Virus record (IMG/VR): IMGVR_UViG_3300043499_000238
Location: 47,141-111,140 of that record
Length of the DNA stretch: 64,000 bases
Reading direction: 5' to 3' (one strand)
Origin: a virus
The notes beneath the pieces are model-generated. The model did not search any database and was not told the DNA's origin. It was given only the letters and a program-made list of their open reading frames with translations. This document shows positions 554 through 23,701 of the stretch, in pieces; the first letter of the stretch is position 1, and each line of letters begins with the position of its first letter. A program made the translations under genes and the position numbers.

Positions 554-2581
554 CTAGCAGGTGAGTGGGAGGAGCATCCCAGGCGTGAACCCGGGCGGCA
601 GAGAGACGGACACCACCGGGTCGACCGGAGCCGTGGTGGGTGGTGCTGGGCAAGTCGTGGTGGGCGCAACGACGGTCGAAGTCGTCGTCGTACCCACCAC
701 GACACTCGTGGTCGACGTGATGACCGTGGTCGGTGTGACCACCGTGGTCGTCGTCGGCTCGGGATCGCCGCCAGGTGGCTGCGTGGTCGTGGTCGGTGGT
801 GCCAGGCAGTCGATGTCGTCGGCGTTGATCCGCTGACACATGACCACCTGAGCGGTGTTGCCCGCATCAGCGTCGCCGGTACCAATGATGTTGCCCGCAT
901 CGTCCAGAGCGAGCACCTGCACGGCGTCGCCTGACTGCACCCCGTTCACGTTGTTCCCCTGGCTCACGCTCTGCGTGGTGTTGTTGCCCGTGTTGGCGTT
1001 GGCCAGGCCCAGCGAGATGATCACCGTCACCTGACGCATGTTCGCCTGCGCTCCGGTGGCCGACGTGGTCGTCGTGTCGAGACCCTCGAACGAGGCGTCG
1101 AGGCGCAGCAGCACGCCCTGGAACGGCACGTCGATCCCCCGGCTGACGGCGTCCATCGTGGCGCCGTTGGCAGAGTCGTGCACGAGGGCGAGCATCTCGG
1201 CCATGAAGGCCGCCATCATCACGATCGATGAGGCGTCGTCGGCTGAGAGGGTCTGGATGCCGCCACCCAAGACGTTCCCTCCGGTGTTAGCTGCAGCGGC
1301 TCCCATGTTGGCCACGAGGACGTTCTGCACGATGTCCACCACACCGTCGCCCGATGAAGCCGCAAGAGCAACCTGGCGAACGAACGTGTCGCTGTCGTTA
1401 CCCACTGCGGTGGCGTCTCCACTGGAGATGGCGCCTGCCGCCGGGCCGTACCCGTACGACTGGAGCAGCGCCGGGAGGAGCATGGCGAAGAGGTCTTGTG
1501 CGTAGGCGTTGTCGTCGGTCGGGTCGGCGGAGAGAAGTCCACCAGCTACTCCTGAGATGTCGTTGATACCTGAGTTGGCGAGGGCGAAGCCCACGTTGAG
1601 CACCGTGGCGCGTTGCGTCACGTTGAGGGTCGCAGTGTCCTCACCGAGTAGCTGTGCGTACTGGTCGATGTTGGTGGTCGACAGGTTGCCGGTAGCGGCC
1701 GCATCACCGGCAGTGATCGCACCGCCCGAGCCGCCGGTAGCCCCGGCGCCCGTGACACCGTTCAGTCCGGTGTTCGCCGTACCGAGGCCCATCCACAGTG
1801 AGATGGCGAGCTGCCCGGCGTGGGCGTCGGTGTCCTCGTCGCCCGTCTCGCGCGCCGCCTGGGTGATGTATTGGCCGATATCGAGGCCGGTGGCGTCGGC
1901 GTCGCCCGTGGTGACGCCTGCGGTCAGTCCTGCTCCGCCTGGCGTGCTCGCAACGCCGTTGTAGCCGGAGTTGGCCAGTGCCACCCCAACATTGATGATG
2001 AGGGCCACCTGGACGACGTTGGCGATGGCTTGGTCCTGCAGCGTGATGTCAGCGCCCTGAGTGACGACATTGGCGTCCTGAGAGCCGACAGCGTCTGCAG
2101 CGCCAGTAGCGATGTCAGCAGGAAGCTGCCCACCGCCCGGCTGGCCAGAGTTGTCGACCGCATTGTTGCCTCCCGTGTTGGCGTTGGCCACCACGGTGGC
2201 GGTGACCACGGACTGCTGGTCCTGGTTGACCTGGTTGGGGTTGGAGGTAGGAGCGATCGCCACCGTCGTCTCGGCGTCGACCACCTGCTGCGGCGTGGTC
2301 ACAGAATCATTCGATGATTCGGTACCGACGGGCGCTGGCGCTGTGGTGGCTGCCTCGGTAGGCGCCGGGGTCGTCTCCGGGTCCGTCACCACGATCTGGA
2401 TCGTCGTGGGAGGATCGGTGTCGGGCGCCTGGGTGGTGGGAGCCTCAGTGACCGGCGCCGTGGTGGGCGCCTCGGTCGGCGGAGGTGTCTCCGGTGGAGT
2501 ACTGGCGTCCACCATCGCCGCACCGATCATGGTCAGTGCCGCCGTTGTGACGAAGGCCGTCACGAGCCTGATGCCGCGCAT
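554..2581 (-). CDS. Secreted repeat protein with Asn/Gly-rich beta-type repeats
   Basis: The 675-residue product has a signal peptide of about 25 residues (ending AAMVDA), a Thr/Pro-rich linker to about residue 80, and a long body of degenerate repeats. The recurring core is N-[VM]-G-x-A-x-A-N-[TS]-G-x-N (for example NVGVALANSGYN, MGLGTANTGLN, NVGFALANSGIN, NMGAAAANTGGN, SLGLANANTGNN). It alternates with a G-D-A-x-A-x-G segment followed by Gln-containing strands. A second Thr/Pro-rich stretch and a CPAPPT-containing tail end the protein. Regular N/G/Q spacing suggests a secreted beta-solenoid or curli-like fold; this is inference. I chose ATG 2581 rather than the TTG just before it; AAGGCGG lies upstream. 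Role unknown: surface coat, adhesion or superinfection exclusion are possible. Confidence 0.75.
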   Translation of the reverse strand: MRGIRLVTAFVTTAALTMIGAAMVDASTPPETPPPTEAPTTAPVTEAPTTQAPDTDPPTTIQIVVTDPETTPAPTEAATTAPAPVGTESSNDSVTTPQQVVDAETTVAIAPTSNPNQVNQDQQSVVTATVVANANTGGNNAVDNSGQPGGGQLPADIATGAADAVGSQDANVVTQGADITLQDQAIANVVQVALIINVGVALANSGYNGVASTPGGAGLTAGVTTGDADATGLDIGQYITQAARETGDEDTDAHAGQLAISLWMGLGTANTGLNGVTGAGATGGSGGAITAGDAAATGNLSTTNIDQYAQLLGEDTATLNVTQRATVLNVGFALANSGINDISGVAGGLLSADPTDDNAYAQDLFAMLLPALLQSYGYGPAAGAISSGDATAVGNDSDTFVRQVALAASSGDGVVDIVQNVLVANMGAAAANTGGNVLGGGIQTLSADDASSIVMMAAFMAEMLALVHDSANGATMDAVSRGIDVPFQGVLLRLDASFEGLDTTTTSATGAQANMRQVTVIISLGLANANTGNNTTQSVSQGNNVNGVQSGDAVQVLALDDAGNIIGTGDADAGNTAQVVMCQRINADDIDCLAPPTTTTQPPGGDPEPTTTTVVTPTTVITSTTSVVVGTTTTSTVVAPTTTCPAPPTTAPVDPVVSVSLPPGFTPGMLLPLTC

Positions 2582-2666
2582 CAAATCCGCCTTTCATGCA
2601 AAGGGGCGGGGCCACCGAAGCAGCCCCGCCCCAGGTTCTCCTCAGACTCCTCAGAGGAGAGGTTGG

Positions 2667-3701
2667 TCAGCCTGCGTCGCCGGTCGCCGCGGCCGAGTCG
2701 GCCGTGGTGTTGTCCTGCGTCTGCGTGACCGTCAACGTCGCGGTGTTGGTGGCCGTGGCCGCCCCCGTCGTGATGTTGTTGCTCGCCGTCGAGGCGTTGG
2801 TCCCGGTGTTGGTGTTGCCACCGCTGCTGGTCCCACCCGCACCACCGGTCGCCTCGGCGGCATCGCTGCCGCTGGCGGCCGACGCACCCGAGCCGCCGGA
2901 GGCGGACGAGGTCGAGTCGCTGGACGAGTCGCTGGTGTGGGCGCTGCCGCCGTCGGCGTCGCTGTCGGCGTCCTGCGACGCCGAGTTGCTCTGGTTCACC
3001 GTGTTGGTCGCCGTGTTGCCGCCCGAGTTGGACGAGGCGTCCTGGCTCACCGAAGCGTGCACGGTGGCGTCCTGGTAGACGCTCGCCGAAGCGCTGGCCT
3101 CCGCACCGGTCGGCGTCGAGGACGCCGCGGTGGCGCCGCCAGCCGAGGAGGCCGACGTGGCCGCCCCACCGGTCGCCGTCGCCGTGTTGGTGTTGTCGTT
3201 GGTCTGCTCCTGCGAGATGCCGCCGTTGACGGTGTTGCCCGCCGTGGCCGCACCGGCTGCGATGCCGTTGGTGGCGCCGCTCGTGTTGCCGCCCGTGTTG
3301 CCGTTGGTGGCATCGCTGCCGCCGCCGACTCCGCCGGTCGCCTTCACGCCGCCGCCGCCCTCGGCCGCCGAGGCGCCCGAGCCGGAAGCCGCCGAGACCT
3401 CGTCCTCGGAGCGGTCGCTCGAAGAAGCGTCCCCACCGTTGGCGTCGGAGTTGGACTCCTGGTCGGCGCTGTTGGACTGGTCGACGTAGTTGTACTCGAC
3501 GTTGTCCCCGGTGTTGGTGTACGCCTTCTGGCACAGCTCGACGTCGGCGACGGCCGACTGAGTCACGCTGGAGCTGGCGTCCGAGACGGCCGGATCGGGA
3601 GCCGGTGCCTCTTCGGCGGACGCCGCAGCGCCGACACCGATGGTCAACCCCGCCGAAGCGAGGGTGGCGAGAACGACTCGCCGGGTCTTGGAACGAAGCA
3701 T
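2667..3701 (-). CDS. Secreted Ser/Ala/Gly/Asn-rich repeat protein
   Basis: The 344-residue product starts at ATG 3701 behind a strong AGGAGG. It has a classical signal peptide (basic start MLRSKTRR, hydrophobic core, ASA-E cleavage region near residue 29). The mature protein is almost entirely Ser, Ala, Gly, Asn, Asp and Thr. It contains two long copies of one pattern: N-T/S-G-x-N, then V-x-Q-S-N-S-A-x-Q, an acidic/Ser stretch, a Gly/Ala stretch, then GGNT...TAGNTV or TATNTA. The Q-x-N and N-x-G spacing recalls curlin-type or beta-strand repeats. It is the likely first gene of the leftward block with the 554-2581 gene. Composition is very unlike the phage structural genes, so acquisition from a cellular genome or a host flank is possible. 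Confidence 0.75.
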   Translation of the reverse strand: MLRSKTRRVVLATLASAGLTIGVGAAASAEEAPAPDPAVSDASSSVTQSAVADVELCQKAYTNTGDNVEYNYVDQSNSADQESNSDANGGDASSSDRSEDEVSAASGSGASAAEGGGGVKATGGVGGGSDATNGNTGGNTSGATNGIAAGAATAGNTVNGGISQEQTNDNTNTATATGGAATSASSAGGATAASSTPTGAEASASASVYQDATVHASVSQDASSNSGGNTATNTVNQSNSASQDADSDADGGSAHTSDSSSDSTSSASGGSGASAASGSDAAEATGGAGGTSSGGNTNTGTNASTASNNITTGAATATNTATLTVTQTQDNTTADSAAATGDAG

Positions 3702-5567: not shown

Positions 5568-7598
5568 CTACCGGGTCGGCGGCAGCTCGGGCGGAGCTGT
5601 CGTGGTGGTCGTGGTCGTCGGCGGGAACGGCCCGTTCGGGTTGGCGCACGCCGCCGTCTCGGGGGGGTACTCCACGAACGCCGTGGCCGTGGGGTTCACC
5701 TCGTAGGTGAGGTTGATGCCGTCGCGTAGGTAGTCGTCGCTCGGGTCGAGCACCCAAAAGCCGTCGCTGTTCAGCTCCCAGCCGGGCACGTCGGCGATCG
5801 AGCCATCGGGGTTCACGGCGGTACCGGGGTACAGCACCTGGACCGTGGTGCCCGGCTCGTAGACCAGCGGCTGCGACGACACGAAGTTGCCGTTGACATC
5901 CCGCATCGTCAGCGTGCCAGTGCGGCCCGCCAGCGACGGGAACTGGTTGCGGAAGATGATCTGGATCGTCGGCACCTCACGCTGGCACACCGTCTCAGCG
6001 TCTCCGAAGGAGAAGAGGCTAGGGATTGGTGGCGGAACGCTGCTGCTCGTCGTCGTGCTTGTCGATGACGGCGATGATGTGGTCGAGGACGACGGGCTTG
6101 TGGTCGTCGTCGTGGGCGTACCCTGCGTCGTCGTCGGAGCAACCGTGGTGGACGTGGTCGTCACCGCGGGGAGCGAGGTGGTCGTCGTTGAGGCCGTCGT
6201 GGTTGTCGGGGCAGCCGTCGTCGTAGTGGTGCCCCCTCCGGGCACGCTCGTGCTCGTCGTCGTGCTGGTGCTGCTGGGGACGGTTGTCGTCGTGGATGTC
6301 GTGCTGCTTGTCGTGGTGGTGGCCGCTGCGGTAGTCGTAGGGCCAGGGGGCTGGGTAGTGGTAGTCGAGGTGCTCGTCGTCGGGGCCACCGTGGTGGTGG
6401 ACGTAGACGTGCTGGTAACCGGCACGGTGGAGGTCGTCGTTGAGGGCGCGGTGGTCGAAGACGTCGATGAGGTTGTTGTACCCGCTGTCGTCGTGGTCGT
6501 ACACGTTCCTGGGTAGGTCACCGAGGCCGTCGCCGTCTCCGGGCCGAGCGAGTAGATCAGGTTGACGTTCTGCGTCGTGTTCGGGTAGGGGATCGTCACC
6601 GTCTGGTTCGACTGGAAGACCAGGAACACCGACCCGCCCGTGCTGAACGACAGGACTCCGGTCTGACCGTCGAGATCCGGCCGGTTGCCGAAGGTGATCG
6701 TGATCGTCGGCTGGCCATCCACGCACGACGTGAAGACGTTAACGCCGAACAGGCTCACCCTCGGCTGCGTCGTCGTCGTCGTGGACGATGTGGTCGTAGT
6801 GGTCACGACGGTAGATGACGTTGTTGGGGCCGTAGACGTAGTCGAGGACGTGGATGTCGTCGGTGGAGAAGTCGTCGTAGTTGAGGTGGGCGGGGAAGTC
6901 GTCGTGGTCGTTGATGTCGGCACCGCCGTGGTCGAGGTGGTCGTGGTCGTGGTCGTTGGCGTACCGGTGCAGCCGAGCACGCTCGGCTCGTCCTGGCCGA
7001 TGTCGTAGGCGATCACGATGGAGCGGCCCTGGCGGTCAGCGAAGAACGCACCGTCGATCACACCGTTCCAGTTGGGGATCGAGTGGATGTCGACCGAGAT
7101 CGGGTTGTCGCCGGTCTGGAGCCGCTCATCGACTCCCGGCGTCCCGACGAACTTGCAGACGAAGACCTTGTGGCTGACCTCAGTCGTCGTGGTCGCGCCA
7201 CCCGGCAGCGTCGTCGTCGTCAGAGCTGGGGAGGTGGTAGTCGTCGTAGTCGAGGAGGGGGCCGTTGTTGACGACGTAGCCGTCGTCGTAGAGGTGGTAC
7301 TGGATGTGGGTGTCGCCGTGGTTGTAGTACCGCCGTCCACGGTGGTGGTGGTGCGAGGAGGCGATGTTGTCGTCGGCGCCACCGTCGTCGTGTACTTCGG
7401 GATGGTCGACGTCGGCGTGATCGTGTTGTGGGTCGTCGTCGTCGGGTTGTCGTGTGGGGTCGTGACCGGCGCCTGTGTGGTCGACGTCTCGTACCCGCCC
7501 CGGAAAGCGTCGCCAGGCACGTCGAAGAACGCCATCGTGGGCGCCCCCACCGCCACCACTGCTGCCACGGCCACAACTGCTGCTACCCGCACCTTCAT
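5568..7598 (-). CDS. Large secreted Thr-rich mucin-like protein with three globular modules
   Basis: The 676-residue product has a signal peptide of about 23 residues (ending GAPTMA). Long Thr/Ser/Pro tracts separate three folded modules. Module 1 (about residues 142-211) contains KVFVCKFVGTPGVDERLQTG, a segment I recognise as recurrent in actinobacterial secreted proteins of unknown role. Modules 2 (about 281-366) and 3 (about 524-650) both open with LF and have the pattern C..[GE].P.I.I.F.N..P.L.G.TG.L, so they are diverged copies of one beta-sandwich. The Thr tracts are likely extended and possibly O-glycosylated. ATG 7598 is preferred to the TTG before it; GGGAGG lies upstream. No membrane anchor is seen. 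Probable role: cell-surface or matrix protein. Confidence 0.72.
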   Translation of the reverse strand: MKVRVAAVVAVAAVVAVGAPTMAFFDVPGDAFRGGYETSTTQAPVTTPHDNPTTTTHNTITPTSTIPKYTTTVAPTTTSPPRTTTTVDGGTTTTATPTSSTTSTTTATSSTTAPSSTTTTTTSPALTTTTLPGGATTTTEVSHKVFVCKFVGTPGVDERLQTGDNPISVDIHSIPNWNGVIDGAFFADRQGRSIVIAYDIGQDEPSVLGCTGTPTTTTTTTSTTAVPTSTTTTTSPPTSTTTTSPPTTSTSSTTSTAPTTSSTVVTTTTTSSTTTTTQPRVSLFGVNVFTSCVDGQPTITITFGNRPDLDGQTGVLSFSTGGSVFLVFQSNQTVTIPYPNTTQNVNLIYSLGPETATASVTYPGTCTTTTTAGTTTSSTSSTTAPSTTTSTVPVTSTSTSTTTVAPTTSTSTTTTQPPGPTTTAAATTTTSSTTSTTTTVPSSTSTTTSTSVPGGGTTTTTAAPTTTTASTTTTSLPAVTTTSTTVAPTTTQGTPTTTTTSPSSSTTSSPSSTSTTTSSSVPPPIPSLFSFGDAETVCQREVPTIQIIFRNQFPSLAGRTGTLTMRDVNGNFVSSQPLVYEPGTTVQVLYPGTAVNPDGSIADVPGWELNSDGFWVLDPSDDYLRDGINLTYEVNPTATAFVEYPPETAACANPNGPFPPTTTTTTTAPPELPPTR

Positions 7599-10134: not shown

Positions 10135-11721
10135 GTGACGGCAGCCGTACGCGAGATCGCCGAAGAGCGATACGAGGAGTACGTCGAGGAGCAAGAGGAG
10201 GCCGAGGACTTCGTTGAGGTCGACCCCGACTCCGAGGAGTTCATCCACGAGCTGACGATGCGCTGCATGGTCTTCATGGAGGCGCTGGCCGAGATACAGC
10301 TCCACCCCTATCAGAAGGATCTGGCGTACCGCACGATCCAGTCGGTGTTGCTCAACGACGGCGCCGAGATCACCGCCCTGTGGGCACGCCAGTCCGGCAA
10401 ATCGACAGCGCTGGCGTCGATCATCGCGACGATGATGGTGCTGCTGCCCAAGTTGGCGGCCGCCTATCCCGAGCACTTCCCCCAGTTCGCTCGTGGGTTC
10501 CTCGTCGGAGTGTTTGCTCCGACTGAGGAGCAGGCGTACACGGTGTGGTCGAAGATCCACGACATCCTCACCTGCAAGCGCGGCCGCGAGATCCTCAGCG
10601 ACGAGGACATCGAGGACGTGCCGCAGAAGGAAGGCTCCAAGGTCAAGGTCGTCCGCCTCGTCAACAGCGGCTCGCTGTGCCGCATGCAGACCGCCAACCC
10701 GAAGGCGCAGATCGAGTCGAAGACGTACCACTTCGTGCTCCTCGATGAGAGCCAGGACTGCGACTCGGAGAAGGCACGCAAGTCGATCTTCCCGATGCTC
10801 GCCTCGACCAACGGCACCAAGGTGTTCACCGGCACCTGCTCGCGCAAGCGCAACTTCTTCTATGACGCCATCCAGGCCAACAAGCGCAAGGCGCTCCGTC
10901 GAGGCTCCCGGCAGGACCACTTCCAGTACAACTGGAAGGTCGTCGTCAAGTTCAACAGCTTCTACAAGAAGTACATCGCTGGGGAGAAGGAGCGGCTCGG
11001 CGAGGACAGTGACGAGTTCCGCCTGAGCTACGCATGCGAGTGGTTGCTGGAGTCGGGGATGTTCGTGACCGAGGAGTCGTTGGACTTCCTTGGCGATCCC
11101 GGCATGGAGATCCAGCCGTGGTTCGTGGTCGACAAGTGCGTTGCGGGAATCGACGTGGCGCGCACCAAGGACTCGACCGTCGTCACCGTGATGTGGGTCG
11201 ACTGGAACAACCCCGACCCGTACGGCTACTGCCAGCACCGCATCCTCAACTGGCTGGAGATCCACAACAAGCTGTGGGAGCAGCAGTACGCACAGATCAT
11301 CGAGTTCCTGTCGCACTACAACGTCGCGATCGTCGGTGTCGACGGTCAGGGCATGGGCCAGCCCGTCGGCGAGCGCATCGCCCACGAGATGCCGTGGGTC
11401 GACGTGCGCATCCTCAGCTCGGACCAGTCCACCCAGGAGAAGCGCTGGAAGCGGCTCAAGGCGTTGATCGAGCGGCGCATGTTCATCTACCCGGCCGGTC
11501 GCAAGACCAAGAGGCTGCGCTGCTACAAGCGCTTCCGGCTGCAGTTCGAGGAGCTGGAGACGGCGTACAGCGGCAAGTACATGCTCGCCGCAGCGCCCGA
11601 GGCGGTCAACGCCTTCGATGACTACTGCGACTCGGCGGCCCTCGGCGTGGCCGTCACCGAGGACGAGGACTTCGGCGTGGTGCAGGTGGTCGACTCACCG
11701 TTCCATGGTCGCCACCGGTAA
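10135..11721 (+). CDS. terL: Terminase large subunit (DNA-packaging ATPase/nuclease)
   Basis: The 528-residue product is the motor that packages DNA into the prohead. Walker A is seen as WARQSGKSTA (about residues 83-92). Walker B with the catalytic Glu is VLLDESQD (about 201-208), with a coupling-type S/T-rich segment following (ASTNGTKVFTGT). The RNase H-like nuclease domain begins with GIDVARTKDSTVV (about 338-350), then AIVGVDGQGMG (about 398-408), and a late acidic residue in FDDYCDSAALGV (about 492-503). Length and order are normal for the family. It is the first gene of the packaging and head block and uses a leaderless GTG start. Confidence 0.95.
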   Translation: MTAAVREIAEERYEEYVEEQEEAEDFVEVDPDSEEFIHELTMRCMVFMEALAEIQLHPYQKDLAYRTIQSVLLNDGAEITALWARQSGKSTALASIIATMMVLLPKLAAAYPEHFPQFARGFLVGVFAPTEEQAYTVWSKIHDILTCKRGREILSDEDIEDVPQKEGSKVKVVRLVNSGSLCRMQTANPKAQIESKTYHFVLLDESQDCDSEKARKSIFPMLASTNGTKVFTGTCSRKRNFFYDAIQANKRKALRRGSRQDHFQYNWKVVVKFNSFYKKYIAGEKERLGEDSDEFRLSYACEWLLESGMFVTEESLDFLGDPGMEIQPWFVVDKCVAGIDVARTKDSTVVTVMWVDWNNPDPYGYCQHRILNWLEIHNKLWEQQYAQIIEFLSHYNVAIVGVDGQGMGQPVGERIAHEMPWVDVRILSSDQSTQEKRWKRLKALIERRMFIYPAGRKTKRLRCYKRFRLQFEELETAYSGKYMLAAAPEAVNAFDDYCDSAALGVAVTEDEDFGVVQVVDSPFHGRHR

Positions 11722-13403: not shown

Positions 13404-14858
13404 GTGCCGAGGAAGAAGGCCGCAGCAGCGCCAGGACCGATGTCACCGGACGAGCTGCGCGCCGCATACATCCCCGGCGTGGGGCCGCAGGGATCGATCA
13501 ACGGCGTCAAGCCGCACCGCACCGCCGCCGGTCGTGAGAAGCAGCGGGCCGCCCGTGAGGAGATGCACCGCACGATCCCGCAGCAGGAGCTGCCCGAGTC
13601 GGGCGAGGCCGTGCGCATGCCCAACCCGAAGTCAGCCAAGTTCCACAAGCCAGCCGTGATGAGCGAGGCCGAGTCGGTGCAGGCGGCCAACGCTCGTGCG
13701 TCTCGCGCTGCGTGGGAGCAGACGCCCGAGGGCAAGGCGCGCACCGCCAACATGAGCGACCTGATGGGCGCCGATGCCAAGGGGATGTCGATCCGCCAGG
13801 TGTACGGAGCCAAGAAGGCACCGACGCGCGACCCCGGCCCGGTGACCGGTCAGCTACAGCTCCCCGGCATGGCCGACCCCCACGCAGCTCCGCGCCCGGC
13901 GCGCTGGGAGGAGCTGTCGGAGGCCAACCGCAGCCACGCCCTCAAGGGGCTGGCGCTTCACGGCACGAGCATCGAGCAGATGATCGGCGACTATGGAGCG
14001 CAGATCGACCAGGCCCACCACCGCGCCTGGCAGGCCGGTGCCGAGCGGCCCTTCTCGCAGGAGTTCTACAGCGTCGGTGAACCACGCCAGGTGATCAGCC
14101 AGTCGGCGCACGAGCTGGGCATCCCCGAGCAGATCCACTCGCACATGAACGCCCTCACGTCGCCGAACACCAAGTTCAGCCAGCGCACCAAGGAAGGCGA
14201 GACGGTCTACCCCAACAACCGCGCCGCCGAGCACGCAGTGCGTCACGTCCAGCAGGGTGGTGATCCGGCCGACCTGACCAACGCCTTCTCGACCACCGGC
14301 ATGGAGCGCTGGAAGGGCGAGCACGCCCAGGGCTACGAGAAGAACATGATCAAGGCGGCGTCGTCGTACCAGCAGCACGAGGCTGGCGTTCCTCCGGCGG
14401 AGTGGGTGACCGGCAAGAAGGGCGAGGGTCCGTTCGAGTCATCGCCCAAGACCGGCCCGTACTCCAACTCGTGGAACGACTCGCACCCGCAGTTCTTCGT
14501 CAGCGACGTGCACTCCGGTGGCGGCGGCTTCCTCCCCCACCTCTCATCGGACAAGCCGGTGCCGATGGAGGGCGGTCAGATCAAGCGCACCGCCTCGGGC
14601 AAGAAGGCGTCGGTGAAGAGCGAGCGCGAGGTCGGCATCGAGCGCACGCCGTTCTTCCATGCCGCTGCCGACTACGCAGCGCGCCAGGCGCACGAGGCCC
14701 GCGGCATCGCTCACGTACGGGAAGGCCAGGCGGTGCAGTGGGGCGAGGAGCAACTGCAGCGCGGTGAGGCCGGGATGCGCGGCGCCCCCAAGCAGCGCGA
14801 CGTCTACCCGGCGGCGGTCAACACCAAGCAGTTCAACCACCCGTCGCTGTTCGACTGA
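13404..14858 (+). CDS. Large hypothetical head-block protein
   Basis: The 484-residue product starts at GTG 13404 with GAGGAG upstream. It begins with a basic Lys/Ala stretch (MPRKKAAAAPG), has a helical middle (ALKGLALHGTSIEQMIGDYG), and then conserved-looking segments such as LTSPNTKFSQRTKEG, YPNNRAAEHAV and FFVSDVHSGGGGFLPHL. The C-terminal part has IERTPFFHAAADYAARQAHE and a short QFNHPSLFD end, similar to endings of other actinophage proteins I recall but cannot name. The His/Asp-rich motif near FVSDVHSGGG could be catalytic. No confident function; a minor virion or injected protein is possible. Confidence 0.6.
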   Translation: MPRKKAAAAPGPMSPDELRAAYIPGVGPQGSINGVKPHRTAAGREKQRAAREEMHRTIPQQELPESGEAVRMPNPKSAKFHKPAVMSEAESVQAANARASRAAWEQTPEGKARTANMSDLMGADAKGMSIRQVYGAKKAPTRDPGPVTGQLQLPGMADPHAAPRPARWEELSEANRSHALKGLALHGTSIEQMIGDYGAQIDQAHHRAWQAGAERPFSQEFYSVGEPRQVISQSAHELGIPEQIHSHMNALTSPNTKFSQRTKEGETVYPNNRAAEHAVRHVQQGGDPADLTNAFSTTGMERWKGEHAQGYEKNMIKAASSYQQHEAGVPPAEWVTGKKGEGPFESSPKTGPYSNSWNDSHPQFFVSDVHSGGGGFLPHLSSDKPVPMEGGQIKRTASGKKASVKSEREVGIERTPFFHAAADYAARQAHEARGIAHVREGQAVQWGEEQLQRGEAGMRGAPKQRDVYPAAVNTKQFNHPSLFD

Positions 14859-15419: not shown

Positions 15420-15635
15420 ATGGCCGCCCACGATCATCTCGGCGCCCAGTTCGGTGTCGGCGACACCGTGCACGTACCAGGCCACGGGCCGGTCACCGTC
15501 GAGTCGATGAACAAGCGCTACTTCTCCGGCACCACGGCGTCCGGTGAGCGTCTCGGTCAGACCGGCATCGGTCTGGCCGCCGGGCAGGGGATGCGTGGCG
15601 GCACCCCGTGGCGGGTCGAGAGAGGCGCCGAGTAG
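15420..15635 (+). CDS. Small beta-rich protein
   Basis: The 71-residue product starts at ATG 15420, 2 bases after the previous stop. The pattern FGVGDTVHVPGHGPVTVESM resembles a small SH3-like or KOW-like beta barrel, followed by a Gly-rich segment and the ending GGTPWRVERGAE. It precedes the larger putative transferase gene by 3 bases. The fold suggestion is weak. Confidence 0.5.
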   Translation: MAAHDHLGAQFGVGDTVHVPGHGPVTVESMNKRYFSGTTASGERLGQTGIGLAAGQGMRGGTPWRVERGAE

Positions 15636-15638
15636 CTC

Positions 15639-16433
15639 GTGACGATCCGAGGCCGTATCTACCGAGGGGAGGTGCGCCACGCCGTTCCGACGTACCAGCA
15701 CCCCGACCCAGCGGCGCATGCGGCCGAGGATCCCGAGGGCTTCCTCCACCAGTGGATGCAGCCGCACTACCCGTACCCGAAGGGCTGGACCGGCGACGCT
15801 CCCACCGTCGGCCAGCACTGGACGCGCTCGCCGCAGAGCATCCCCGAGCGCTTCATCGAGCCGGTGCTGCTGCGCCCGCAGCCGGGTGTGCCGATGGGCA
15901 AGCGTGAGCAGACCGCCGTGATGCGCCGGGAGGCGACCGAGCAGGACACGGGTGGCCCGGGCTACGGCATGCCCGGCCACGAAGAGCACCAGGAGATGAT
16001 GCGCAAGTACGCGGCGCATGCCGACCGAGCTGACCGTCAGGGCATCAACACGTACCACGATCTCTCCGGCGGCGACCCGGACCGCCCGGGAGCGGCCAAG
16101 CCGTACAAGATGGCCGTGGTGTGGGAGGGCCAGCACCATGAAGCTGCCGAGCAAGGCACCAACTACGAGGACGAGCTGAACATCCCCATGGGTGAGCACG
16201 TCACCGTCACTGGTGCGCGCATCTACGTACCGAAGCCAGGCGTGGAGCACGACTTCCGGGCGCGCCACCCGTCGGTGTTCACGCCCGAGGAGCACGCCCA
16301 CGCACGGGCCGACGTGATCACTCGATCGGCGTACAGCCACATCGACCCCCACTCGTCTATCCCTTGGAGCCGGATCCAGTTCGAGAACGCTCAGCAGCTC
16401 AAAGTCGATCGCTACCGGGGAGGGTCGCGCTGA
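15639..16433 (+). CDS. Possible ADP-ribosyltransferase-fold protein
   Basis: The 264-residue product starts at GTG 15639. Three spaced elements fit the general layout of ADP-ribosyltransferases: an Arg-containing first strand (RGRIYRGEV), a second block (VGQHWTRSPQSI) about where the S-T-S type motif falls, and an acidic third block (YEDELNIPMGEHVTVTGARI). Between the second and third lie about 100 residues of helical, His/Glu-rich sequence. I see the pattern only by eye, and catalytic residues cannot be fixed. If correct, this would be one of two such proteins in the head block and could be carried in the virion to modify host targets. Confidence 0.45.
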   Translation: MTIRGRIYRGEVRHAVPTYQHPDPAAHAAEDPEGFLHQWMQPHYPYPKGWTGDAPTVGQHWTRSPQSIPERFIEPVLLRPQPGVPMGKREQTAVMRREATEQDTGGPGYGMPGHEEHQEMMRKYAAHADRADRQGINTYHDLSGGDPDRPGAAKPYKMAVVWEGQHHEAAEQGTNYEDELNIPMGEHVTVTGARIYVPKPGVEHDFRARHPSVFTPEEHAHARADVITRSAYSHIDPHSSIPWSRIQFENAQQLKVDRYRGGSR

Positions 16434-17562: not shown

Positions 17563-18660
17563 GTGCCTCGGGTGGCCGAGCCACCTGGGCAGGCTGGGTC
17601 CACCCGTCTAGCCCGCGAGCACGTCGACCGTACGCGCGACCTGACAGCAGCGGCCGCTGCGCCGGGCGACACCAACGCTGCTGTCGACGCTCACCAGCAC
17701 GCCGTCAGTCGTGTGCAGGACCACGCCGGGCGCATGGGCGTCAACCTCGTTGACCTCCCGCCGATGAACCCCAAGCCGTTGCGGCCGGGACAGGTGAGCC
17801 AAGGCACGCTGTGGGACTCCCGCTCGATGAAGCCGTCGCCGGAGCACCAGTGGGCGGCGCACGGCTACTCCCCCGAGCGCCGCGACGCCATCGCCGCCGC
17901 GATCCCCAAGGTGGGTGTCTCGTCTTCCTTCTCGTACCCCGGCGGTAGCACGGGCGTGCCGTACACGGGCGAGGTCACTGGCGGTGTGTATCCGGCGATC
18001 GGTCAAGTCGGCGGCAAGCGCAAGAACCAGGTGGCTGCGACACGCAACTCGGTGGTCGACATCCTCGCTCGATCGACGGCGCCGTTGGGCGACATCGTCA
18101 ACGCCACGCCGGACATCAAGGTGCAGCCGATGGCGAGAGCGGCCGGTCAGCACCGCACGAAGATGCGCGGGTGGGAGGACGAGCCGTTCGTCCGTGAGAT
18201 CAAGCTCCACCCCGGTGGCGGCCCGGCGCGCACCCGTGCCCAGGTCGAGCACACCGTGCTCCACGAGTTCGGGCACAACGTCGACTTCGAGCGTGACCGT
18301 AAAGCCTTCACCACCAACGCACGATTCAACCTCCCGGCGGTGGAGGGGTTCGCCGAGGGCTACGCCGCCAAGCACCGGGTGGGGCGGCGCAACGAGCCAC
18401 CCGTTCCGTACTCCGGCGTTGCCGCCTACAAGAGCATGCACGGTCGCTCCTCGTTCGGTGAGAACTTCGAGCGTGCAAGCGGGCGATCGCTCCCTCAGGC
18501 GATGGGTGCGCAGAAGCATCTCGGTGAGCAGTGGTCGCAGGGCAAGCTCTTCACCGGATCGAGCGAGACCGGTTTCGTCAAGGATGAGAACGAGCCACTC
18601 CCCACGATCTCGAATGCCGAGTGGGACCACCTCACCGGGCGCAACCGTGCCCGCCGTTGA
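17563..18660 (+). CDS. Putative zinc metallopeptidase (HExxH) in the head block
   Basis: The 365-residue product starts at GTG 17563, one base after the preceding stop. At about residues 234-238 it has HEFGH in the context VEHTVLHEFGHNVDFE, the classic two-His zinc site with catalytic Glu. About 20 residues later comes VEGFAEGYAAKHR, whose Glu fits the third ligand of gluzincin-type enzymes (E-x-F/Y-A). The first 150 residues are Pro/Ser-rich and probably act as an adaptor or pro-region. It directly precedes an ADP-ribosyltransferase-like gene and the portal. Roles to consider are prohead maturation or a virion-carried enzyme. The protease call rests on motif and spacing. Confidence 0.75.
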   Translation: MPRVAEPPGQAGSTRLAREHVDRTRDLTAAAAAPGDTNAAVDAHQHAVSRVQDHAGRMGVNLVDLPPMNPKPLRPGQVSQGTLWDSRSMKPSPEHQWAAHGYSPERRDAIAAAIPKVGVSSSFSYPGGSTGVPYTGEVTGGVYPAIGQVGGKRKNQVAATRNSVVDILARSTAPLGDIVNATPDIKVQPMARAAGQHRTKMRGWEDEPFVREIKLHPGGGPARTRAQVEHTVLHEFGHNVDFERDRKAFTTNARFNLPAVEGFAEGYAAKHRVGRRNEPPVPYSGVAAYKSMHGRSSFGENFERASGRSLPQAMGAQKHLGEQWSQGKLFTGSSETGFVKDENEPLPTISNAEWDHLTGRNRARR

Positions 18661-18961
18661 CCATCTCAACGGCGAGCTGTTCCACGGCACCGCTCACCCG
18701 TTCGAGCCGGGCGACATCGTCAGCCCCACCGACACCGAGCACACCGAGTTCCCGACGGCGTGGGCGACACCACGGATGGACGAGGCCAACCAGATCGCAC
18801 GGGCCAAGGTGCGTCGGCACAACCGTCGCAACCCCGACGACCCAGCCACCGAGCACGTCTTCGCCGTCGAGCACATGAGCAAGCCGGTCGATGTGTGGGG
18901 ACGAGCCAACGTCGCCGCAGACCCCGTTGGCTTCCGCGTACTACGTAGGGTTGGTCCGTGA
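18647..18961 (+). CDS. Arr-like small ADP-ribosyltransferase-fold protein
   Basis: The 104-residue product starts at GTG 18647, inside the last codons of the metallopeptidase gene. It opens with GELFHGTAHPFEPGDIVSP, which matches the start of rifamycin ADP-ribosyltransferase-like folds (F-H-G-T ... G-D-x-I-x-P). It continues with TAWATPRMDEANQIARAK (strand plus helix) and VFAVEHMSKPVDVWGRANV (third core block with Asp). The His of HGT is the expected NAD-binding residue; the Tyr of the canonical triad is not clear. The substrate is unknown. The portal start overlaps its stop by 4 bases. This pairing beside the portal suggests a virion-linked or early-injected role, by inference. Confidence 0.65.
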   Translation: MPAVDHLNGELFHGTAHPFEPGDIVSPTDTEHTEFPTAWATPRMDEANQIARAKVRRHNRRNPDDPATEHVFAVEHMSKPVDVWGRANVAADPVGFRVLRRVGP

Positions 18962-20649
18962 GCATCGCCTTCTGGCCTCCGAGCTACCGCGCCGGTACCT
19001 CGGACCTTGCCATCCAGATCTCGCCGCTCGGCCTGGTCGACCTCAGCAACGAGGAGATGGAGGTCCACGGCATCCGCCTCAGCAGGTACTCGCTCTACTG
19101 GGCGCACTACCTCGGCCACCACTGGGCGTACCGCCGTGAGGTCGGCGAGCCGCAGTTCACGTTCAACTACGTGCGGGCACTGAGCGACTACCTCACGAAC
19201 TTCACCTTCGGCCGTGGCGTCACCTTCCAGTCGCCGCCAGCGACCGCCGCCATCGTGCCCACACTCCTCAAGCGAGTGTGGGAGGGCGACAACCGCAAGG
19301 CCGCACTGCTGTGGGAGATGGGACAGATCGCCTCGGTAACCGGCGACCTCTTCGTCAAGGTGGCGTACGAAGACCCGTTCGTTGACCCGGCGGGACGGGT
19401 CCATCCTGGCCGGGTTCGGATACTCCCTCTGAACCCGGCCAACTGCTTCCCGCAATGGCACGAGCACGACCGCACACGGCTGCTCAGCTTCAAGCTCAAG
19501 TATCGCTTCTTCTCCACCGACCAGACCGGCACGCGCATCGTCAATACCTACGTCGAGCGCGTCACCGACAACGGCATCGAGGAGTACGTCAACGACGAGC
19601 TGATCTCGGCCCGCCCCAACCCGCTGGGCGTGATCCCGATCGTCTACATCCCCAACATCATGGTGAGCGGCTCACCGTGGGGACTGAGCGACATCGGCGA
19701 GGTGATCCCGCTCAACCGTGAGTACAACGAGAAGGCGATCGAGATCTCCGACATCGTCAACTACCACTCCGCTCCCGTCACGGTGATCACCGGGGCCAAG
19801 GTGCCGCAGTTGGAGAAGGGTGCGCGCAAGACGTGGTTCCTGCCCAAGGACGCCAAGGTCGAGACTCTGCAGTCCACCTGGCAGCTAGAGCACATGCTCG
19901 GCTACATGGAGGTCGTCAAGCGGGGCATGCACGAGATGACCGGCGTGCCGGAGCAAGCGCTCGGGCAGGTGCAGCCGATCAGCAACACCAGCGGCGTGGC
20001 GTTGGCGATCCAGTACGCGCCAACGATGCAGCGCTTCCGCATGAAGAAGAACAACTTCGAGACGGGCTTCCAACAGATCAACGAGCTGGTGCTCTTGACG
20101 CTGTTCCAGAAGGAACCCATGTCGATGCAGTTCAACCCCATGGAGGATCTCGCCCCCAAGCCGGGACAGCTCACAGCGCTCGATCCCGCTGACCCCAACA
20201 GCTACGAGACGTCGGTCTACTGGCCCGAGCCACTGCCGGTCGACGTGCTCGTCAAGCTCAACGAGATCGCACAGAAGATGCAGCTCGGCATCGAGTCCAA
20301 GCGCGGTGCGCTCGCCGACCTCGGTGAGGAGTTCCCCGACGCCAAGCTCGCCGAGATCTTCGCTGAGATCCTCGAAGACTCCAAGGATCAGGGTGCGTTG
20401 CAGCTCCAGAACAGCGCCATCCAGTCGGCGATCGTTGCGCTCACCGGCATGGTGCCCCAGGGCGGCGAGGTGGCCGACACCGGACAGCAGGGTGCCGACA
20501 GCGGCTCGCCTGACGCTGGTGGTACCGGCATCATGCCTGGTCTCGTGCTCGATCAGAACACGATGAACCTCATGAACGAGCTGACGACTCGGGCGTACCT
20601 GCCTCGCATGGGACAGTTCAGGAATCCCTCCAACGCAGGCATCGAGTAG
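18958..20649 (+). CDS. Portal protein
   Basis: The 563-residue product forms the dodecameric ring at the head vertex through which DNA passes. It shows typical SPP1 gp6-type features: an N-terminal clip/wing region with NYVRALSDYLTNFTFGRGV, the mid-protein GDLFVKVAYEDP, then PLNREYNEKAIEISDIVNYH and the stem/crown region GYMEVVKRGMHEMTGVPEQALG followed by SNTSGVALAIQYAPTMQR. The acidic, Gln/Gly-rich C-terminus is probably disordered. GTG 18958 overlaps the preceding stop (GTGA). Length is usual for the family. Confidence 0.9.
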   Translation: MSIAFWPPSYRAGTSDLAIQISPLGLVDLSNEEMEVHGIRLSRYSLYWAHYLGHHWAYRREVGEPQFTFNYVRALSDYLTNFTFGRGVTFQSPPATAAIVPTLLKRVWEGDNRKAALLWEMGQIASVTGDLFVKVAYEDPFVDPAGRVHPGRVRILPLNPANCFPQWHEHDRTRLLSFKLKYRFFSTDQTGTRIVNTYVERVTDNGIEEYVNDELISARPNPLGVIPIVYIPNIMVSGSPWGLSDIGEVIPLNREYNEKAIEISDIVNYHSAPVTVITGAKVPQLEKGARKTWFLPKDAKVETLQSTWQLEHMLGYMEVVKRGMHEMTGVPEQALGQVQPISNTSGVALAIQYAPTMQRFRMKKNNFETGFQQINELVLLTLFQKEPMSMQFNPMEDLAPKPGQLTALDPADPNSYETSVYWPEPLPVDVLVKLNEIAQKMQLGIESKRGALADLGEEFPDAKLAEIFAEILEDSKDQGALQLQNSAIQSAIVALTGMVPQGGEVADTGQQGADSGSPDAGGTGIMPGLVLDQNTMNLMNELTTRAYLPRMGQFRNPSNAGIE

Positions 20650-20719
20650 CGTTCGACCTCTTCACGCTGGGTAGATAACCTCTACTGGCACAACGTCGAA
20701 CCACCGCCGGAGGCTTTCA

Positions 20720-21577
20720 ATGTCGGACAGCAACACCATCCAGGTCGATCAGACGGGTGGGCAGCCCGCCAACAGCACAGGTGGTGCCAATCCGCTCAGT
20801 ACCGGCAACGGCTTCCTCACTGGTGTGCAGCCCGCTGCACAGCCGGGGAGTGTGACGCAGACCAACCCGCAGGGTCTGTCGGCGGCCGAGCTGGCGTTGG
20901 TTCAGCAGCACGCCGCCCAGGCTGCTCAGGCCGCCGTCGCACCGCAGGGCGAGACGCTCGCCGAGATGCAACAGCGCATGGCCGCCATGCAGACCGAGCT
21001 GGACGCCGCCCGTACCGCTCGTGAAGCGTCCGAGGCCGAGGCCGCTGCTGCCGAGCAGGCCCGCCTCGATGCCGAGCGTGCCGCCGCCGAGAGCACCATG
21101 TCGGCCACCGAGCTGGTCGGTCAGGTGCGTGCCGAGATGCAGGCCGAGTTCGCCGCGATCCAAGAGCGCGCCGCCGCCAGCGAGGCGCTGCTCGAACGTG
21201 AGCGTCGGTACAGCGCACTGCAGGACTACAAGGCGCAGCGTCTCGCCGACCCCGAGATCGCCGCCGCCGTGATGCCGCACCTCCACCCGTACATCGTTGG
21301 TGGCAGCGAGCAGGAGATCGAGGAAGCGATCGCTCGGGCGGCGCAGACGTCCAGCAGCATCGTGGCCGAGTTCCAGCAGTACCAGCAGCAGTACCGCCAG
21401 CAGGCACCCGGCGTGTCGCCGACGGCGCCGACGACCGGCCCGCTGGAGCAGCAGCAGTCGACGCGCCCGATGAGCGCACAGGAGATCGCGGCGCTCCCCG
21501 ACGCCGAGTACGCACGGCTGCGGCCACAGTTGCTGCGCGCTGCGGGACAGCAGTTCCGCGCCCAGCGCGGAGGCTGA
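20720..21577 (+). CDS. Scaffolding protein
   Basis: The 285-residue product lies immediately before the major capsid gene and has scaffold features. These are a polar, Gly/Asn/Gln-rich start, a long Ala/Glu/Gln/Arg coiled coil (about residues 75-170, as in EMQQRMAAMQTELDAARTAR), and a Gln-rich C-terminal part ending in a short basic helix (RPQLLRAAGQQFRAQRGG) suited to capsid binding. GGAGG precedes the ATG. The 70 bases upstream hold TAGATAACCT, a possible promoter. No protease motif was seen within it. Confidence 0.82.
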   Translation: MSDSNTIQVDQTGGQPANSTGGANPLSTGNGFLTGVQPAAQPGSVTQTNPQGLSAAELALVQQHAAQAAQAAVAPQGETLAEMQQRMAAMQTELDAARTAREASEAEAAAAEQARLDAERAAAESTMSATELVGQVRAEMQAEFAAIQERAAASEALLERERRYSALQDYKAQRLADPEIAAAVMPHLHPYIVGGSEQEIEEAIARAAQTSSSIVAEFQQYQQQYRQQAPGVSPTAPTTGPLEQQQSTRPMSAQEIAALPDAEYARLRPQLLRAAGQQFRAQRGG

Positions 21578-21605
21578 TAGCTCCCGTCGTACGAAAGGGT
21601 CGAAC

Positions 21606-21611
21606 TACTGT
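21606..21611 (+). promoter_or_regulatory. Possible promoter for the major capsid gene
   Basis: TACTGT would start transcription near 21618, giving a leader of about 45 bases with the strong site AAGGAGTAACTC before ATG 21664. No convincing -35 box is seen. Separate expression of the capsid gene is expected, because a terminator-like hairpin follows it. Confidence 0.4.
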
Positions 21612-21663
21612 CTCTTGTAGGTCAGCAGCTCGTCTGATCGTCGCGACCTTCAAGGAGTAACTC

Positions 21664-22791
21664 ATGCCCGATATCTCAGGTGGCATCTCGGGTACTGGCA
21701 ACCTGTACTCGGGTGTGTCCGGTGGATCCAACCCGGCTGCCGTCCCGGTTGGTGGTGCCTTCCTCGGGGTGCAAGTGCCACCCGCCCCCAGCGGTCTCGT
21801 GACCCAGGGCTATCCGCAGGGGACGGCGATCACCGGCTCCACGACGATGACCCCCGCGGTCCAGACGATCTGGTCCAAGGAGATCCTCTTCCAGGCGATG
21901 CCCATCCTGAGGTTCGAGCAGTTCGCGGTCAAGAAGACCGAGCTGGGCGTCACCCCCGGCCTGACCGTGAACTTCATGAAGTACAACAACCTTGACGTCG
22001 ACAGCGTCAACGGTGCGACCCTCACCGAAGGCATCCGCATGAGCACTCGTGCGCTGTCGGCCTTCCAGTTCCGCATCACGGTCGCCGAGCAGGGCACCGC
22101 CGTCGCCGTCTCCGAGCTGCTGCTGCACGCCTCGTTCGATGACGTGATGGCCTCGGCCTCTCGCCTGCTCGGGCGCCACATGGCGCAGTCGATGGACTAC
22201 CAGGCCCGCAACACGCTGATGCTGGCGCCGGGGTCCGAGGTCTACGGCTACGACGACGCCGCCCCCTGGCAGGGCGCCTCGACCAACATCTACGAGCCGG
22301 GCACCAAGGCGGCCAACGCCGCCGCAGTGACCGGCGCCGTGGCCGCCACCAACAAGTACTACCTCACCCCGCACACGGTGAAGGACGCAGTGCAGGCGCT
22401 GGCGTCGCTCAACATCCCCCGCCTCGGCGAGACGTACGTCATGTTCGCCCACCCGGCGCAGGCCCGCCGGTTGCGTGACTCCCCCGAGTTCATCGAGGTC
22501 ACGAAGTACGCCGCCCCCGGCAACTTCATGCTCGGCGAGATCGGCCGCCTGTGGGACGTCGTCATCATCGAGACCACGCAGGTCAACTACGCCGCTGCGG
22601 GTGCGGGCAACAACTACTACGACGGGATCATGATCGGCGACAACGCCTTCGGTCACGCCGTGTCGTTGCCGGTCGAGCTTCGCGATGGCGGAGTCCTCGA
22701 CTTCGGGCGTGAGCACGCTCTGGCGTGGTACGCCATTTGGGGTTGGGGTTCGATCACGCCGCAGGCCGTGGTCCGCGTCCTGACGAACTGA
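21664..22791 (+). CDS. Major capsid protein
   Basis: The 375-residue product is called by order (portal, scaffold, capsid) and by sequence. It has a disordered Gly-rich N-arm, then TPAVQTIWSKEILFQAMPIL and LRFEQFAVKKTELG, a central AQSMDYQARNTLMLAPGSEV, and the P-domain-like MFAHPAQARRLRDSPEFIEV followed by LGEIGRLWDVVIIETTQVNY. The pattern is like the N4 gp56 family of HK97-fold capsids. The strong ribosome-binding site and the downstream hairpin fit very high expression. The family assignment is less sure than the function. Confidence 0.88.
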   Translation: MPDISGGISGTGNLYSGVSGGSNPAAVPVGGAFLGVQVPPAPSGLVTQGYPQGTAITGSTTMTPAVQTIWSKEILFQAMPILRFEQFAVKKTELGVTPGLTVNFMKYNNLDVDSVNGATLTEGIRMSTRALSAFQFRITVAEQGTAVAVSELLLHASFDDVMASASRLLGRHMAQSMDYQARNTLMLAPGSEVYGYDDAAPWQGASTNIYEPGTKAANAAAVTGAVAATNKYYLTPHTVKDAVQALASLNIPRLGETYVMFAHPAQARRLRDSPEFIEVTKYAAPGNFMLGEIGRLWDVVIIETTQVNYAAAGAGNNYYDGIMIGDNAFGHAVSLPVELRDGGVLDFGREHALAWYAIWGWGSITPQAVVRVLTN

Positions 22792-22821
22792 ACCCCTACC
22801 AAGCCCTCAGGGGTTGAGGAC

Positions 22822-22845
22822 GGAGCGCCCCTTCGGGGGCGCTCT
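22822..22845 (+). terminator. Hairpin after the capsid gene
   Basis: A 10-bp stem (GGAGCGCCCC / GGGGCGCTCT, one G-T pair) is closed by a TTCG tetraloop, 30 bases after the capsid stop. A new leaderless promoter follows at once, so this marks a transcription unit boundary. Confidence 0.75.
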
Positions 22846-22851
22846 GTCGCG

Positions 22852-22857
22852 TACCGT
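22852..22857 (+). promoter_or_regulatory. -10 element of a leaderless promoter
   Basis: TACCGT lies 6 bases before GTG 22864. The gap contains GGAGG, but only 1-2 bases from the start, which is too close to work as an ordinary ribosome-binding site. Confidence 0.45.
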
Positions 22858-22863
22858 GGAGGT

Positions 22864-23373
22864 GTGGCCGCCAGCGATCACGTCAACCCTGATCAGCTCC
22901 AGCTCTTCATGACGGGCACGGAGTTGAAGGGTGCGATCACCGACTCGATCGACCGCAATCCGCTCGGTGGCTTCGGCGGCACGATGGACAAGATGTGGGC
23001 GACCAAGCTGCGCCAGTCCAAGCGCCCCGCCGACCATCCCGGCCATGGTGCTGGCATCTACCAGTCGATGAAGCAGCACGGGTGGAACCCACCCGAGCAG
23101 GTGTGGGGTGACGAGGCTCCTGGGTGGGACAACGCAGGCTTCGAGATCAACCACGTCCGCAAGTACGGAGGCATCCCCGAGTGGGACCGTACCGAGGTCT
23201 CTGTCACGGGCGCCCACCACCGCATCGCTGCGGCCGCCGACATCGAGGCCAAGACCGCTGGCACGAAGAGGCCGCGCACGATCTACTTCCCGACGGCCAA
23301 CAACCAGTACGAGCACCCGTCGATCATCCCGCCAGATCGCACGCCAGCGAAGAGCGATCGCCTTGCCCGCTGA
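22864..23373 (+). CDS. ParB/sulfiredoxin-fold protein
   Basis: The 169-residue product has the layout of ParB-like nuclease or sulfiredoxin-fold phage proteins. There is an N-terminal QLQLFMTGTELKGAI, then GHGAGIYQSMKQHGWNPPEQVW (the strand-helix that sets what residues to read), and the signature VTGAHHRIAAAADIEAK at about residues 113-129, corresponding to the G-x-H-R-x-A-A nucleotide-binding motif. Such proteins may bind or hydrolyse nucleotides or act on DNA. The activity here is not known. It is followed by a GNAT gene with an 11-base overlap, an arrangement suggesting a functional pair. Confidence 0.7.
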   Translation: MAASDHVNPDQLQLFMTGTELKGAITDSIDRNPLGGFGGTMDKMWATKLRQSKRPADHPGHGAGIYQSMKQHGWNPPEQVWGDEAPGWDNAGFEINHVRKYGGIPEWDRTEVSVTGAHHRIAAAADIEAKTAGTKRPRTIYFPTANNQYEHPSIIPPDRTPAKSDRLAR

Positions 23374-23701
23374 CGAACACCTCGGGCTGCAGTTCGACTA
23401 CGACAACCCCGAGCTGGGCACAGCGAAGGTCGTCCACCGGGTCACAGCGAGAGCAGGCCCACTGTTGAACGAGGTGGGGCGGATGCTCTGGAACAGTCGC
23501 AGCATCCTCAACATCGACGTCGATCCGCAGCACGCACGTCGTGGGGTGGCGACATCGATGTGGAACGAAGGTCACCGGCTCGCCGAGCAGAACGCTCGCG
23601 TCCCCGCACCCAAGCACTCACCCGATCGCACAGCGATGGGCGATGCATGGGCGCGCTCGGTCGGAGGGCAGCTTCCCCGGCGCAAGAGAGACGCTGGTTA
23701 G
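23363..23701 (+). CDS. GNAT-fold acetyltransferase-like protein
   Basis: The 112-residue product has GNAT motif A: ILNIDVDPQHARRGVATSMW (about residues 48-67), including the R-R-G-V-A acetyl-CoA pyrophosphate loop, followed by a helix and the segment PKHSPDRTAMGDAWARSVGG. It is short for a GNAT and lacks a clear N-terminal half. The best start is TTG 23363, which overlaps the ParB-like gene by 11 bases; no ATG or GTG fits. The substrate is unknown. The compact form with HS..RT..G.AWA near the end is a phage-type variant. Confidence 0.65.
   Translation: MPADEHLGLQFDYDNPELGTAKVVHRVTARAGPLLNEVGRMLWNSRSILNIDVDPQHARRGVATSMWNEGHRLAEQNARVPAPKHSPDRTAMGDAWARSVGGQLPRRKRDAG

Follow-up and report, generated by a model that had tools for sequence, protein, structure and literature searches.

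The window analysed here is a 64,000-nucleotide (nt) stretch of viral DNA, bases 47141-111140 of an IMG/VR virus record of 111,140 bases (IMGVR_UViG_3300043499_000238), with a G+C content of 66%. It contains a phage head module that starts with TerL and continues through portal, scaffold-like, major capsid and tail genes (Table 1). A first-pass annotation, made from the sequence alone, had pointed to small enzyme-like genes within this module, namely a metallopeptidase, an Arr-like ADP-ribosyltransferase (ART), a ParB/sulfiredoxin-like protein, a GNAT and a possible second ART. In our own gene check all of these genes were present inside the module. The overlaps that it mentioned are also there: the Arr-like gene shares 14 nt with the metallopeptidase gene and 4 nt with the portal gene, and the ParB-like and GNAT genes overlap by 11 nt. 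For the shared promoters that it also invoked, no sigma-70-like site was found. The main feature of the locus, a shared N-terminus, had gone unremarked.

Four unrelated window proteins, encoded from positions 15420, 18647, 22864 and 23363, open with a common peptide, approximately MxAx[DE]H[LV][GN], here termed the tag; what follows it is termed the body. The model of the Arr-like protein has a mean predicted local distance difference test score (pLDDT) of 55 over residues 1-10, and its first strand begins at residue 11, so that the tag lies outside the confidently folded Arr domain.

Table 1. Head-module genes, enzyme-like genes and tag codons of the window
Feature	Coordinates	Strand	Remarks
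TerL	10135-11721		start of head module
Small protein, DHLG tag	15420..15635	+	71 amino acids; tag then FGVGDTVHVP
Tag codons MAAHDHLGAQ	15420..15449	+	
Possible R-S-E type ART	15639..16433	+	motifs YRGE, HWTRS, NYEDE; starts MTIRGR
HExxH metallopeptidase-like protein	17563..18660	+	365 amino acids; VLHEFGHNVDF, later EGFAEG
Putative Arr-fold ART, DHLN tag	18647..18961	+	104 amino acids; GTG start; FHGT motif
Tag codons MPAVDHLNGE	18647..18676	+	
Portal protein	18958..20649	+	PHROG portal, E=6e-40
Scaffold-like protein	20720..21577	+	Phage_scaffold, E=0.004, plus position
Major capsid protein	21664..22791	+	N4-gp56 family, E=6e-36
ParB/sulfiredoxin-like protein, DHVN tag	22864..23373	+	AHHR
Tag codons MAASDHVNPDQ	22864..22896	+	
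GNAT acetyltransferase-like protein, EHLG tag	23363..23701	+	TTG start
Tag codons MPADEHLGLQ	23363..23392	+	

More than 100 related genes of environmental viruses carry the tag or local variants of it (loci and genomes of the comparison are given below as L and G numbers). Its general form is [LI][SNG]xxQF and the consensus of tagged members (A/S)A-x-[ED]-[NSH]-[LI]-[SN]-x-x-Q-F, with M[APTS]Ax[DE]HLGxQ as a local dialect. Among the bodies that bear the tag or a dialect (LNPxQF, NLSxxQF, MGRNNxDF) in relatives are those of GNAT, Arr, ParB and metallopeptidase type. In L004 it is found on an HEMGH protein and on one that is ART-like; further tagged ART-like proteins occur in L006, L092 and L094, and tagged ParB-like proteins in L099, L125 and L126. 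Dialects include LNPRQF in L010 and L011 and MSHxALNxEQF in G009, and at L094 12529-13997 (G001 92403-93871) all members of a run of five genes, three for Arr and two for GNAT proteins, start with MGRNN or MGRNK followed by xDF. Elsewhere in G001, the gene at 792-977 starts MGANNEDF. The window's own genome has another cluster of small tagged genes beyond the window, near nuclease-like genes (L084 14665-17947, same coordinates in G000), consisting of two DHLG/DHLS ParB-like genes and an LSKQF protein of 297 amino acids. The tag was absent from 185 genes of cargo-poor isolate regions, and a tblastn search of the effector proteins against phage records returned no isolate with it. When IMG/VR was searched with a DNA pattern for the tag, 37 matches came back, about 10 of them true gene starts.

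The preference of the motif for protein starts was measured in several ways. Of the occurrences of [DE]H[LVI][GNS], 30 fall within the first 13 residues and 46 further along, whereas chance would place 6% at the start (P=5e-17), in a count for which some loci were themselves fetched by the tag; permuted controls stay at chance level. Among loci not fetched by the tag, [LIMV][GNS]x(1,2)QF is N-terminal 25 times against 4.8 expected (P=2.5e-12). A fairer set comprises 70 loci retrieved solely by conserved stretches of the GNAT body. There the tag regular expression matches the N-terminus of solo proteins at a rate of 64% for GNAT, 56% for Arr and 50% for ParB, against 1-4% of internal 24-mers and 12% of other genes, many of them effector-like; it matches none of five giant fused proteins. 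Comparison of dialects on hand-picked tagged proteins is tag-selected and illustrative only, and pairwise N-terminal scores across whole genomes were too noisy for counting pairs, although tags topped the lists in several genomes. The fair test is a permutation within families: when proteins of different families are paired, their N-termini score 19.9 on average if both come from one locus and 14.7 if they come from different loci, a result reached in none of 1000 permutations. In the GNAT-fetched loci this within-locus resemblance is not seen at residues 21-35, at residues 41-55 or in the last 15 residues. We are nearly certain that the N-terminal tag exists.

The coding DNA indicates what is conserved. 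Conserved tag residues use varied synonymous codons even in adjacent genes (CGC, AGA and AGG for R; GGT, GGC and GGA for G), and the 24 nt upstream of tagged starts are not conserved; selection therefore acts on the peptide. The common start could otherwise be a DNA-level feature, either a recombination boundary or a translation-initiation element that encodes a peptide by chance, as might suit effector genes that differ among related genomes and overlap their neighbours. The codon variation and unconserved upstream DNA contradict this explanation, which we reject as exceedingly improbable.

The tag is also exchanged between homologous bodies. The homologue of the 15420 protein in L006 opens with MAIRGRVPR before an identical FGVGDTVHVP, where the window has DHLGAQ, a swapped tag. 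GNAT bodies carry EHLG, DHVN, GRNN, LNPEQF or NLSxxQF; Arr bodies carry DHLN, GRNN, ISVDQF or NLSxxQF; ParB-like bodies carry DHLG, LNPQQF or LGPQF; and metallopeptidase homologues start with LNDSQF (L035), VNQVQF (L051) or VNSTQF (L081). The tag is N-terminal, conserved as protein and common to unrelated bodies; it is specific to a genome or lineage, and homologous bodies carry it in swapped forms.

The N-terminal motif might instead be of QLxLF type, bind the replication sliding clamp and bring the proteins to replicating DNA. ParB-like members do read DQLQLF or EQMRLF, and N-termini are enriched in QLxLF-like strings. However, where the body is an Arr, a GNAT or another type, the Q-F runs straight into the first strand of the domain without an L-F pair, and the MGRNNxDF dialect has no such motif. 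Since QLxLF or QxxLF is found only in the ParB-like members and not in all, clamp binding was rejected as very unlikely.

Two further recurring motifs were seen. The start M[AT]IRGR, in the window at 15639-16433 and at L006 6466, 6655 and 6831 and L084 17738, is possibly a separate tag class. An internal motif (QGTLWD, QGKLFQ, QGMLFDP, QLQLPGM) lies about 20-100 or more residues into larger cargo-like proteins (window 13404-14858 and 17563-18660; L004 5569-6837; L035 11761-12732; G001 90616-92274) and may be a second docking or cleavage motif.

The window enzymes themselves have no significant match in Pfam, PHROG or NCBIfam, so their family identities are drawn mostly from relatives. For the Arr-like protein the best PDB profile match is a rifampin ART (E=0.011), and its predicted structure (pLDDT 79) matches Arr-2 with a Z score of 11.7 and a root-mean-square deviation of 2.6 over 97 residues. 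The FHGT histidine is invariant among homologues. The curated cut-off of Pfam Arr-ms was missed (18.3 bits against 25 for the homologue in L108, and no match for the window protein). By this modelling the protein is predicted to have the Arr/ART fold, with the FHGT histidine in place. The protein at 22864-23373 appears from its motif and its relatives to belong to the ParB/sulfiredoxin superfamily: it has a GxHR-type motif whose HHR is invariant in 14 relatives, and ParB_N is matched at best with E 1e-5, in two members but not by the window protein. Likewise, GNAT homologues in L094 and L126 exceed the Pfam Acetyltransf gathering score and the window GNAT has no match.

In the metallopeptidase-like protein the HExxH motif and a third acidic ligand are both found, and HE[FI]GH and the downstream EG are conserved in five sequences at 23-29% identity; Zincin_1 matches at only E=0.039, and a search with the alignment recovered only relatives already known. 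The protein at 15639-16433, which lacks the main tag, is a possible second ART. Its YRGE, HWTRS and NYEDE are conserved in one homologue, its identity rests on these motifs only, and its predicted structure has a pLDDT of 32. YRG...HWT-like motifs also occur in tagged proteins elsewhere, for example at L184 3049-3402.

Portals 54-90% identical to that of the window were found in 80 IMG/VR loci, in the Streptomyces phages BRock, GiJojo, Alone3 and pSt2308 and in actinobacterial contigs. The portal search of genome contigs led to Actinomadura, Streptomyces and Saccharothrix contigs, all without tagged cargo; the capsid protein had no match among genome contigs, nor did megablast against phages give any. 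From these relatives we infer that an actinobacterial host is likely. Across 83 loci the core head genes are present in 60-83 and the enzyme genes of the window in only 1-8, so the position of the enzymes is a variable cargo slot. Such variable presence would also suit ordinary accessory genes that lie in the head module by chance and share no delivery. A lineage-specific N-terminus across unrelated families is unexpected for independent genes, however, and we consider this explanation very unlikely.

Other features of these regions may be noted. Small FNDRR/WNDRR proteins recur near the head module (G001 80291 and 82518; G010 61223; L099 9130-9384; L050 9401-9604). Genes of about 164, 247, 182 and 104 amino acids come after long effector arrays, at L209 12522-13880 and, in similar sizes, in L187, L198 and L205. 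In the window, the genes at 554-3701 and 5568-7598, on the minus strand opposite to the head module, have signal-like N-termini and long Thr/Pro-rich stretches.

The first-pass annotation had proposed that the enzymes form an injected-effector kit. The activities do exist as a set, and they match the domain repertoire of phage polyvalent proteins. Iyer et al. (2017, PMC5512222) argue that such proteins, which have a late structural gene context, are packaged and injected. The ground given in the annotation, linkage to head genes, is weak by itself, and some tagged genes lie elsewhere; the common N-terminal tag is a stronger ground for supposing a packaged kit, one resembling the T4 internal proteins and not Alt alone. 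By analogy with P1 DarB and the internal proteins of T4, the tag is probably an address label by which effectors of polyvalent type are taken into the head, to be injected. On this reading the small enzymes that flank the capsid genes are single-domain members of the polyvalent-protein repertoire (ART, GNAT, ParB-like, HExxH), kept as separate genes, and the tag would act as a protein address on their unrelated bodies. A component of assembly, perhaps the scaffold, would bind it as a capsid-targeting sequence; our first guess at the receptor is the scaffold-like protein at 20720-21577. The tagged enzymes would be loaded into the prohead, enter a new host with the DNA and modify host proteins or defences. 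Loading into the prohead as an alternative to fusion is suggested by the capsid-targeting sequences of T4 and P1.

Several observations weigh against capsid delivery. The HEFGH metallopeptidase of the window has no N-terminal tag, and several dialects coexist within one genome. In G000 the two tagged ParB-like genes, at 16.7-17.4 kb, are some 40 kb distant from the head genes, and tagged genes 20-40 kb away occur in G009 and G010 as well. The DNA after the long array of L209 encodes an endolysin and an HslV-family peptidase. The tag statistics rest on our own gene calls and regular expressions with some loci tag-fetched, a circularity that the GNAT set avoids.

The main rival explanation is that the tag serves to dock the enzymes on a common partner outside the virion (a phage adaptor, an antitoxin, a chaperone or a host complex); they would be produced late and do their work in the cell that makes them. 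Tagged genes away from the head module, or in arrays without a recognised head gene nearby, would fit such a partner, as would the tags on small proteins without an enzyme signature. On the other side, many tagged genes adjoin portal and capsid genes, and in several genomes TerL too; the domains are of the types known from proteins for which packaging has been argued (PMC5512222); and there is direct precedent for N-terminal tags that package unrelated cargo. A non-virion partner therefore seems to us doubtful, though a serious contender.

A broader proposition, to which we give belief and doubt in equal measure, is that a large group of environmental phages uses a short N-terminal code ([LI][SNG]xxQF and lineage dialects) to load arrays of single-domain enzymes into virions. 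It might just as well be false as true that this code is an unfused alternative to giant polyvalent proteins; if true, injected effectors would be predictable from sequence alone. A readable tag would then pick out injected phage proteins in metagenomes, for which proteomics is usually needed. It would also account for how phages can maintain many effectors as separate proteins instead of giant fusions, would be a source from which new host-modifying enzymes and antidefence proteins could be drawn, and would offer a means of loading chosen proteins into phage heads.

Among known systems, polyvalent proteins have the same domain types (metallopeptidase, ART, GNAT and ParB) near virion genes, and solo GNATs have been noted adjoining mycobacteriophage structural genes (PMC5512222). 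In polyvalent proteins, as described there, at least two domains are fused in one chain, whereas the window genes are single-domain and tagged; fused versions exist in L145, L214, L217 and L225. Neither the consulted part of that article nor the other literature searched was found to mention an N-terminal tag on polyvalent proteins. Mycobacterium phage Tonenili gp097 (L145 11503-13758), about 4.4 kb upstream of the portal gene, contains a GNAT homologous to that of the window; Pfam gives it two GNAT domains, and by inspection of its sequence it also has segments of ParB-like and ART-like type, but it is an untagged 751-amino-acid fusion, unlike the separate tagged window genes. Linker-like repeats (xRTAG, GARIxAAE) lie between its domains and in the neighbouring gp258 and gp257 (L145 11503-17811) and are possibly processing sites. 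BRock, GiJojo, Alone3 and pSt2308 share the order TerL, portal, scaffold, capsid, with portals 53-57% identical, but their 29-kb head regions have no tagged enzyme genes.

No such tag was described outside T4 and P1 in the literature searched, which largely excluded subscription papers and preprints, and we regard its novelty as provisional. In the P1 Dar system an antirestriction protein has an N-terminal packaging signal akin to the tag: the 30 N-terminal residues of DarB direct a reporter to the capsid (PMC9024508). DarB is one very large protein with a shown signal, whereas here many small proteins have a common putative one. In T4, internal proteins IPI-III carry a short N-terminal capsid-targeting sequence on diverse packaged bodies that vary between related phages, and Alt is an injected ADP-ribosyltransferase (PMC3012670, PMC9391042, PMC5512222). 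A short N-terminal sequence is likewise common to unrelated bodies here, a likeness in arrangement; unlike T4, the present system has an N4-gp56-type capsid, actinobacterial relatives and the ART, GNAT, ParB and HExxH set. No prohead protease was recognised in it. The capsid-targeting sequences of T4 and P1, which the tag would resemble in its working, are by this analogy its closest working counterpart.
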